Below are positions 28,159-43,574 of a stretch of DNA of 58,444 nt, in pieces. Where the stretch lies: contig JAOAEI010000004.1 in assembly GCA_026416875.1 (NCBI GenBank), positions 1-58,444 on the forward strand, read 5' to 3'. The DNA comes from Caloramator sp. GTDB taxonomy: Bacteria; Bacillota; Clostridia; Clostridiales; Caloramatoraceae. The first letter of the stretch is position 1. Each line of letters starts with the position of its first letter. The notes under the pieces are model-generated. The model was not told where the DNA came from. It worked only from the letters and a program-made list of their open reading frames with translations, and made no database searches. A program made the position numbers and the translations under genes.

Positions 28159-29871
28159 ATGCTTAGGGAATTTTTGGAGGACTTAGATAAAGCTTATGAA
28201 AGCTTAATTAAAGGAATTATGGATTTAAGTATATTTGATAAATGGGGAGAAAGCTTAGGAGATACATATCAGAGATTAAAGAATAAAGAAGAAAAGAAAA
28301 AAATAGGAAGTGTTTATACTCCCTTTGAGGTAATAAAGTTTATGGTGGATTCTACATTAGGATTTGAAGAATATAAAAAAAATCCAAATTTAAAGATTTT
28401 AGATCCCTCCTGTGGGGGAGGATTTTTTTTGGTTTATATTTACGAAAAATTATTGGGATACGCAGAGAAACTAAATATTAAAAATCCAAAGGAGCATGTT
28501 GTGAATAATAACATCTATGGTATGGATCTTGATGATGCGGCCTTAAAGATAACAATATTAGAGCTTTATAAAAGAAGTGGAATTATATCTAAAAATATAG
28601 TTTATGGAGATTTTTTATTTGATGTTAAAGATGATTTCCATGTAATAATCGGTAACCCTCCATATATGGGACATAAGGTCCTACTTAAAGATTACAGAGA
28701 AAGGCTAAAAGAAAATTTCGGTGATGTTTTCTATGACAAGGGTGATCTTTCCTACTGCTTTATAAAAAAATCCATTGAAAGCTTAAAGGATGGTGGAAAA
28801 TTAATATTTTTTATTTCAAGATACCTTTTAGAAGCACAAAATGCCTCCGGCATCAGAAATTTTATTTTAAACAATTCTTCAATAGAAAAAATTATAGATT
28901 TTTATGGGGTTAGGGTTTTTAAAAATGCAGGTATAGATAATATAATTATATACCTTATAAAAGGGGAAAAAACCAATATAGAGTATTTTAAATTTTTACC
29001 ATATTATAACAAACATATTAATGAGATTTTTGAAGATATAGAGAAAAAAAGGAGCTTATACACTAAAAGAGTTGAGATTTTAAAGGATGAGTTATCTAAT
29101 GATGGCTGGATTTTTTTAAACAGCTTAGAAAAAAGCATTATAAAGAAAATAAAAGGAGTAAATTTGTGTGAAATTGCAGAGTGCTTTCAAGGGATAATAA
29201 CAGGCTGTGACGATGCTTTTGTTTTAACTTGGGATGAAGCAAAAGAGCTTGAAATTGAAGAGGAGTTATTAAAGCCTTGGATTAAGGGGAGCAATATAGA
29301 GAAATTTAATGTGATTAAGCCAGACAAATGCTTGATATATTCAAATTTAATAGATGATGAAAAAAAATTTAGGAATGCTTTAAAGCATGTAGAAAAATAT
29401 AAGGAAAGGCTTTTAAAAAGAAGAGAATGTCAAAGGGGAGTTAGAAGGTGGTATGAACTTCAGTGGGGAAGAAGCATAGATTTGTTTGAGGACAAAAAGA
29501 TAATCTTCCCTTATAAGGCAGACAGCAATAAGTTTACCATCGATACTGGAAGCTATTTTAGTGCCGATGTTTATGGACTAAAAATTTTAGGGCTTTATAA
29601 ATCATTGTATACTTATGAGTTTTTAGTTGGAATTTTAAACAGTTCACTTTATAAATTTTATATTAAAACCCATCTTAAAAAGCTTGGAGACAATCTATAT
29701 GAATATTACCCTTACAATATTTTAAGGATAAAAATACCAGAATATATAAAAGATGTTGAGAATGAAGTATCAAAGGGTGGGAATGCTAATATTATAGACC
29801 AAATACTAAGAGAGTATTTTAAAATAACAGATAAAGAATTTAATGAAGTAAAATTTTGGATAAGTAGTTGA
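28159..29871 (+). CDS. N-6 adenine DNA methyltransferase, Eco57I/TaqI-like
   Basis: SAM motif 'LDPSCGGGFFLVYIYEKL', motif IV 'IIGNPPYMGHK', C-terminal specificity-like domain. Confidence 0.87.
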   Translation: MLREFLEDLDKAYESLIKGIMDLSIFDKWGESLGDTYQRLKNKEEKKKIGSVYTPFEVIKFMVDSTLGFEEYKKNPNLKILDPSCGGGFFLVYIYEKLLGYAEKLNIKNPKEHVVNNNIYGMDLDDAALKITILELYKRSGIISKNIVYGDFLFDVKDDFHVIIGNPPYMGHKVLLKDYRERLKENFGDVFYDKGDLSYCFIKKSIESLKDGGKLIFFISRYLLEAQNASGIRNFILNNSSIEKIIDFYGVRVFKNAGIDNIIIYLIKGEKTNIEYFKFLPYYNKHINEIFEDIEKKRSLYTKRVEILKDELSNDGWIFLNSLEKSIIKKIKGVNLCEIAECFQGIITGCDDAFVLTWDEAKELEIEEELLKPWIKGSNIEKFNVIKPDKCLIYSNLIDDEKKFRNALKHVEKYKERLLKRRECQRGVRRWYELQWGRSIDLFEDKKIIFPYKADSNKFTIDTGSYFSADVYGLKILGLYKSLYTYEFLVGILNSSLYKFYIKTHLKKLGDNLYEYYPYNILRIKIPEYIKDVENEVSKGGNANIIDQILREYFKITDKEFNEVKFWISS

Positions 29872-29911
29872 TTTTTTTAGACTATTGAAATATAATGTAA
29901 ATAGAAAGAAA

Positions 29912-29930
29912 TATACCCTATACAGGTATA
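29912..29930. promoter_or_regulatory. TATACC-N7-GGTATA palindrome upstream of Sec-glutaredoxin
   Basis: TATACCCTATACAGGTATA; resembles CsoR/CstR-family operator layout. Confidence 0.35.
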
Positions 29931-29951
29931 ATTGATAAAGGAGGAATAAAT

Positions 29952-30176
29952 ATGGCAGTAACAGTTTATACTACTCCAACATGACCATGGTGCACTAGGG
30001 TAAAGGATTACCTAAGACAGAGAAACGTTCCATTTACTGAAAAGAATGTTGCTGCAGATAGAGCAGCAGCTATGGAAATGGTTAGAAAATCAGGCCAAAT
30101 GGGAGTTCCTGTAATTGATATTAACGGAAGAATTATTGTAGGATTTGATAAAGAAGCCATAGATAGAGCCCTATAA
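29952..30176 (+). CDS. Glutaredoxin-like selenoprotein (in-frame TGA at 29982-29984 read as Sec)
   Basis: MAVTVYTTPTUPWCTRVKDYLRQRNVPFTEKNVAADRAAAMEMVRKSGQMGVPVIDINGRIIVGFDKEAIDRAL; TGA replaces the first Cys of the CPWC active site; RBS AAAGGAGG. Confidence 0.88.
29995..30016 (+). promoter_or_regulatory. Bacterial SECIS-like hairpin downstream of UGA
   Basis: CUAGGGUAA-AGGA-UUACCUAAG; loop begins 19 nt after UGA, G at loop position 2. Confidence 0.65.
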
Positions 30177-30205
30177 CAAAAGGACTGCACTTTTGCAGTC
30201 CTTTT
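30177..30205. terminator. Bidirectional terminator
   Basis: AAAAGGACTGCA-CTTT-TGCAGTCCTTTT. Confidence 0.8.
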
Positions 30206-30344
30206 ATCTTGTATCATTTCTTCTATATCCAAATGTTTCTCTAAACTTTTCATCTATCAGATCAATTCCAGGACCTATCTTATATCTTTTAGATGCTGTT
30301 GGAAGCTCTTTGCCTAATATCCATTTCTTGCTTTTTCTTACCAT
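30204..30344 (-). CDS. Small 46-aa basic hypothetical protein
   Basis: MVRKSKKWILGKELPTASKRYKIGPGIDLIDEKFRETFGYRRNDTR, preceded by GGAGGTGAAAAA RBS on the minus strand. Confidence 0.6.
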   Translation of the reverse strand: MVRKSKKWILGKELPTASKRYKIGPGIDLIDEKFRETFGYRRNDTR

Positions 30345-42714: not shown

Positions 42715-42740
42715 GAGGAACTTCCTCATCATTTTTTTTG
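42715..42740. terminator. Bidirectional terminator
   Basis: GATGAGGAA-CTTCCTCATC-ATTTTTTTT. Confidence 0.7.
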
Positions 42741-43574
42741 ATCAAGGTATTCAGCAGCATTTAATGCAGCTATTTGTCCTTCTCCTATAGCCTTTGCAAC
42801 TTGATAGGGCTTTCCTGTTATATCTCCAGCTGCAAATAGTCCTTTTATGTTTGTTTCCATCCTTTTATCTACAAGAACGTGGGGGCCGTCAACCTCAAGT
42901 CCAGGAACAAGGCTTGTAAGGGGAAGGCTATCCTTTAATACGAAGAAACCATCTGCTTCTATTAAGCTATTTTTTAGGACTAGCTTTTCAGCCTTTAATG
43001 AGCCGTCAAATTTTAAAGGATTATCCTTTATTATTTCAACATTTTCTTTGAATTTGAATTCACCTTTAAACATAGGGACGAAATATACTTTTTGACAGAC
43101 TTCAGCAAGAAAATTAGCTTCTTCTACAGACTCATGATTATATCCAACTACTGCTACAACCTTTCCTTTATACAATGGGGCATCACATGTTGCACAATAG
43201 CTAACTCCGTTTCCAAGGAATGTGTCTTCGTTTTCTATGGATTTTTTAAAATCAACTCCTGTAGCAAGGATAACTGATTTTGCTTCATAAAAATCGTTTT
43301 CTGCTTGAATTGAAAAATAGTTGCCCATAGCATAAACTGCGATTACAGTTTTATTTATTATTGTAGCATTAGTTAACTTTAGATGTTCGTTAAGCCTTTC
43401 CATTAAATCCTTGCCTGATATTTTTGGTAAGCCAGGGTAATTAGGAATAGAGGGGCTAAGCAAAACTTTTTTGCTATCGCCCCCGAATATTACAACGCTT
43501 TTGTTTCTGGCAAAGGCATTAACAGCAGCTGAAATTCCAGCTGGACCTTTACCTATTATAGCAACATCAAACAT
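42729..43574 (-). CDS. Thioredoxin-reductase-like flavoprotein (CATC redox motif, NADPH motifs degenerate)
   Basis: 'IIGKGPAGISAAV', 'GVSYCATCDAPLYKGK', 'GLFAAGDITGKPYQVAKAIGEGQIAA'. Confidence 0.88.
   Translation of the reverse strand: MFDVAIIGKGPAGISAAVNAFARNKSVVIFGGDSKKVLLSPSIPNYPGLPKISGKDLMERLNEHLKLTNATIINKTVIAVYAMGNYFSIQAENDFYEAKSVILATGVDFKKSIENEDTFLGNGVSYCATCDAPLYKGKVVAVVGYNHESVEEANFLAEVCQKVYFVPMFKGEFKFKENVEIIKDNPLKFDGSLKAEKLVLKNSLIEADGFFVLKDSLPLTSLVPGLEVDGPHVLVDKRMETNIKGLFAAGDITGKPYQVAKAIGEGQIAALNAAEYLDQKK

Follow-up and report, generated by a model that had tools for sequence, protein, structure and literature searches.

A UGA-containing glutaredoxin gene of Caloramator as a probable selenoprotein gene of the YruB/Cp9 type

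The window considered here is a stretch of 58,444 nucleotides from a Caloramator genome (2.03 Mb assembly, 78% complete). On its forward strand lies a glutaredoxin gene with one internal TGA, the single glutaredoxin that the Pfam glutaredoxin model detects across the whole assembly. Its frame runs from an ATG at 29952–29954 to a TAA at 30174–30176 and, with the TGA taken as a residue, translates as MAVTVYTTPTUPWC...AIDRAL. The start, ribosome-binding site, TGA and frame of the original prediction are all borne out by the sequence and its translation. The features of the locus are as follows.

29868..29896, forward strand: sigma-70-like promoter TTGATT-17-TATAAT (10/12), a consensus match only, such matches being no more numerous in the region than in shuffles
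29913..29929, forward strand: operator-like inverted repeat ATACCCTATACAGGTAT, conserved upstream of the glutaredoxin gene in all four Caloramator genomes
29937..29944, forward strand: strong ribosome-binding site AAAGGAGG, read from the sequence
29952..30176, forward strand: predicted selenocysteine (Sec)-glutaredoxin coding sequence, 74 residues, U at position 11, TAA stop
29982..29984, forward strand: in-frame TGA, predicted Sec codon for the first residue of the UPWC redox motif
29999..30012, forward strand: SECIS-like hairpin with the sequence GGTAA-AGGA-TTACC, whose apical loop begins 19 nt after the TGA
30178..30205, forward strand: intrinsic terminator directly 3' of the TAA, 12 pairs, loop of 4

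Each of the four Caloramator genomes has a terminator-like stem after the gene. Rfam models gave no match over cut-off in the sequence surrounding it, and a scan of the window for further UGA-interrupted long frames gave no convincing second selenoprotein. Ordinary gene callers drop or truncate such a gene, and its annotation should therefore be corrected. In the window the gene is flanked by genes for a DNA methyltransferase and for a protein with DUF4438. Synteny around it extends to three congeners: each has the methyltransferase gene upstream and a TPR-like gene downstream, and two have a match to the DUF4438 gene. The methyltransferase gene directly upstream (28159–29871) is of the Eco57I/TaqI adenine type and diverges between congeners faster than most neighbours (58–86% identity). 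Convergent with the glutaredoxin gene is a 46-codon ORF on the reverse strand (30204–30344), preceded by an RBS-like GGAGGTG; it has no Pfam or NCBIfam match, and the region is conserved in congeners.

The protein matches Pfam Glutaredoxin (PF00462) at 70.9 bits (cut-off 22.9), and in its AlphaFold2 model (pLDDT 93.6), which shows the standard glutaredoxin fold, residue 11 immediately precedes helix 1. The best-scoring curated family is NCBIfam TIGR02196, GlrX_YruB (105.8 bits, cut-off 88.55). The name glutaredoxin in the original prediction thus stands on Pfam and on fold and needs a qualifier, since by best family score the protein is of the YruB/Cp9 type. Against the UXX-star subfamily model (NF041212) it scores 62.7 bits, below the cut-off of 66, and against the UXX-star equivalogs it falls far under the cut-offs. 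The UXX-star glutaredoxin-like selenoproteins (NF041212, NF041114) are related, selenoprotein-rich families; the Caloramator protein keeps the resolving Cys14. Across 30 aligned homologues the active-site positions 11 and 14 and the cis-proline P53 are invariant, with position 11 encoded only by TGA or Cys codons; this is the U/C column for which the original prediction had proposed an alignment, and it agrees with the claim that the TGA occupies the position of the first redox Cys.

Sec-containing glutaredoxins are an established selenoprotein family (PMC13188914, PMC1794560), with members predicted in Sec-decoding anaerobes, namely Alkaliphilus metalliredigenes, Moorella and Geobacter (Genome Biol 2006, PMC1794560). 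The closest PDB entry both by sequence and by fold is 7c10, Grx1 of C. oremlandii (TM about 0.91, 49% identity), whose native form carries Sec (PMC7642778). This Clostridium (Alkaliphilus) oremlandii protein (Kim et al. 2011, as cited in later work; PDB 7c10) shares with ours a UGA-encoded Sec at the first position of UPxC, the fold and a clostridial origin; the active site is UPWC in Caloramator, whereas 7c10 aligns as CPHC. The YruB/Cp9 redoxin of C. pasteurianum, which passes electrons from an NADH-dependent thioredoxin reductase to a peroxiredoxin, is alike in its size of 75–80 residues, its C-P-[YW]-C motif (PMC3720550) and its TIGR02196 match. Cp9 differs in having Cys and in sitting between thioredoxin reductase (cp34) and peroxiredoxin genes; the Caloramator gene has Sec in prediction and neither neighbour. 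Among the papers searched, none mentions Caloramator together with selenoproteins, and the Caloramator gene is a very well supported addition to the known Sec-glutaredoxin family. What is new is the Caloramator members themselves, the frozen codons of their SECIS-like hairpin, and an upstream inverted repeat that they have in common with a HesB-like selenoprotein and other redox genes.

The original prediction depended on the genome supplying SelA, SelB, SelD and the selC product, tRNA-Sec. Family searches of the genome located selA (566 bits) on another contig (C77), immediately preceded by selD and immediately followed by selB. At a distance of about 2 kb from selA, beyond selB and on the opposite strand, lies a tRNA-Sec (68.8 bits, cut-off 47) that ARAGORN calls tRNA-SeC with anticodon TCA. 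A lack of sel genes is therefore excluded as an objection. The selD gene (L002, about 215–1249 on that contig) has an in-frame TGA of its own at a redox-type position, in the context ASGUAAK, and its N-terminus read through the TGA is MEKIKLTQMVEASGUAAKIGPEAL; by its sequence, selD is itself a predicted selenoprotein gene. A HesB/IscA-like gene with an in-frame TGA, likewise at a redox-type position (YIAGFG-U-GGP), is present in all four Caloramator genomes (L146, on contig C10 of the same genome; L143, L144 and L145 in the three congeners).

Two other Caloramator genomes, C. australicus RC3 among them, carry TGA at the same codon of the glutaredoxin gene, with protein identities of 93–96%; the TGA is therefore neither a chance event nor a sequencing error. 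The fourth Caloramator genome (G002) has TGT, a Cys codon, in the same syntenic place where the other three (G000, G001, G003) have TGA. This Cys-bearing congener retains SelA and the TGA-containing HesB-like gene, so the Sec/Cys exchange concerns one gene within one genus. A relative was detected (E <= 1e-8) in 165 of 227 genomes of the order, and among the best matches the TGA is found at the same codon in the three Caloramator genomes and eight others (G010, G087, G099, G116, G130, G131, G207, G208). Two further TGA genes come from a Clostridia MAG (L059) and from another family of the class (L188). SelA is present in all 11 genomes with a TGA glutaredoxin versus 10 of 33 with a Cys glutaredoxin (p = 4.6e-5, Fisher test ignoring relatedness; the 33 include G009, counted as Cys with its match not among the matches listed, and the fraction is 9/32 without it). 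The Caloramator set, with three Sec genes and one Cys gene at the same locus, offers a clean natural pair for asking what a small redoxin gains from Sec.

Bacterial SECIS elements are hairpins that lie shortly after the UGA and carry a G early in the apical loop. The hairpin downstream of the Caloramator TGA has a perfect 5-bp stem and the loop AGGA, with G at the second loop position. Because the isolated stretch folds no better than its shuffles (z 0.5 to 1.0), we judged the hairpin by synonymous sites instead. The stem is perfect in all 13 Sec genes that share its layout (L041, the Acetoanaerobium Sec gene, forms another stem and was excluded) versus one of 26 Cys genes. When synonymous codons are shuffled within genes, the probability of a perfect stem is 0.01–0.09 per gene, giving an expectation of 0.4 perfect stems against 11 observed among 11 lineages, with Caloramator represented once. 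Among Sec genes the codons GTA-AAG-GAT-TAC are invariant wherever the encoded residue is unchanged: synonymous identity in these genes is 0.90 over the five hairpin codons and 0.47 elsewhere, versus 0.57 and 0.52 in Cys genes. In two genes (L188 and L037) a loop-encoded amino acid differs and the stem is kept; among the compared genes the stem pairs show no compensatory changes. It is the freezing of synonymous sites in Sec genes that argues for a selected hairpin, and for this predicted element we regard the comparison as decisive. The frozen GTAAAGGATTACC codons would also provide a strong, transferable criterion for separating true Sec-glutaredoxins from pseudogenes.

A TGA one base away from the Cys codons, in a gene whose close congener has TGT at that position, is also what one might expect of a Cys-glutaredoxin decaying after a nonsense mutation, or of a misread TGC or TGT. 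We consider either very improbable and reject the pseudogene reading, as the TGA is common to independent congener genomes, C. australicus included, and to distant genera, and the sequence downstream of it is under strong purifying selection: after the TGA, pN is 0.007–0.020 versus a pS of 0.27–0.53 among the three Sec congeners, a test confined to that side since the nine codons 5' of the TGA are too few for one of their own. The hairpin kept only in TGA genes and the terminator 3' of the TAA also speak against decay. That the frame stays open past the TGA would equally fit a general reassignment of the codon in this genome, for instance to Trp or Cys, with no link to selenium. This is less probable still, and is rejected, as TGA terminates 11 of the 48 long ORFs in the window, tRNA-Sec, SelA, SelB and SelD are all present, and the homologue column holds nothing other than TGA or Cys codons. 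We place the probability that this is a functional selenoprotein gene, with UGA codon 11 read as Sec, at about 0.93. The functional Sec-glutaredoxin of the original prediction draws support from the sel genes, from the hairpin with its frozen codons and from a dN far below dS after the TGA; Sec insertion in the cell and catalysis are what these features would predict. SelA and SelD would serve to charge the tRNA-Sec with which the ribosome reads UGA codon 11 as Sec, and SelB, bound to the hairpin just downstream of the UGA, would deliver it. The product would be a thioredoxin-fold dithiol/selenothiol oxidoreductase of the YruB/Cp9 type, in which Sec may attack disulfides or oxidised partners and Cys14 would resolve the mixed selenyl-sulfide.

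Granting that the UGA encodes Sec, the protein could still be a classical glutathione-dependent glutaredoxin, as has been proposed for C. oremlandii Grx1. The CPWC-type motif and the glutaredoxin fold would suit such a role, and for Grx1 glutathione was proposed to reduce a monothiol mixed disulfide (PMC4479559). We think this unlikely for Caloramator, though it deserves some weight: a search for GshF-type glutathione synthetase gave no match in the four genomes, the best-scoring family is YruB, whose Cp9 member takes its electrons from an NADH-dependent thioredoxin reductase (PMC3720550), and thioredoxin reductase genes adjoin the glutaredoxin gene in related loci, namely in G116 (Sec), in Clostridium mobile (G138, Cys) and in G007 (Cys). 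An NAD(P)H-dependent flavoprotein resembling thioredoxin reductase is thus probably the reductant of the Sec-glutaredoxin, and we infer it to be more likely than glutathione. In Caloramator no reductase gene adjoins the glutaredoxin gene. The window contains, 12.5 kb away on the reverse strand (42729–43574), a thioredoxin reductase-like protein with a CATC motif, a candidate redoxin reductant.

The C. oremlandii Grx1 reduces a Sec-containing MsrA (PMC4479559). Here the two systems differ, as a search of the four Caloramator genomes gave no MsrA; this partner is therefore not conserved, and we dropped MsrA as a candidate partner of the Caloramator protein. In another genome with a Sec-glutaredoxin (G116) an MsrA gene does carry an in-frame TGA (contig C12, 44982–45389), a pairing as in C. 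oremlandii.

The inverted repeat upstream of the glutaredoxin gene has the form ATACCC-N5-AGGTAT. The pattern ATACCNNNTANNGGTAT occurs 19 times in the four Caloramator genomes (4 of the 19 being the sites from which it was derived) versus 3 times for its reversed control. In all four genomes the repeat precedes the HesB-like gene (GFG-TGA-GGP), and other sites precede NapH-like Fe-S genes, a methyltransferase, and a thioredoxin-like gene that itself lies beside an NADH-oxidase-like gene; a site with one mismatch lies upstream of a CoA-disulfide-reductase-like gene. There are two PF02583 (CsoR-family) genes per Caloramator genome; one adjoins a copper-ATPase-like gene, and the product of the other, judged by eye, does not have the His of the Cys-His-Cys copper site. 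The TTHA1953 consensus is spaced differently from the Caloramator repeat (PMC10318464). In G130, one of the other genomes with a Sec-glutaredoxin, genes for thioredoxin-like and rhodanese-like proteins come after the glutaredoxin gene. From these sequence patterns a thiol or persulfide regulon of the CsoR/CstR type at the repeat seems plausible. A repressor bound there probably controls expression of the glutaredoxin as part of a small thiol/sulfur-stress set that would include the HesB-like selenoprotein. More tentatively, and with the odds somewhat against it, a single repressor of the CsoR/CstR family, acting at ATACC-N7-GGTAT, may control both selenoprotein genes along with the Fe-S, thioredoxin-like and CoA-disulfide-reductase-like genes, as a selenoprotein regulon that responds to persulfide or metal. 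If such a regulon exists, it would suggest that the Sec-glutaredoxin handles reactive sulfur or thiol stress and not methionine sulfoxide repair. Related repeats are seen upstream of glutaredoxin genes in other genera, of both the Sec (L021) and the Cys (L015, L029) form.
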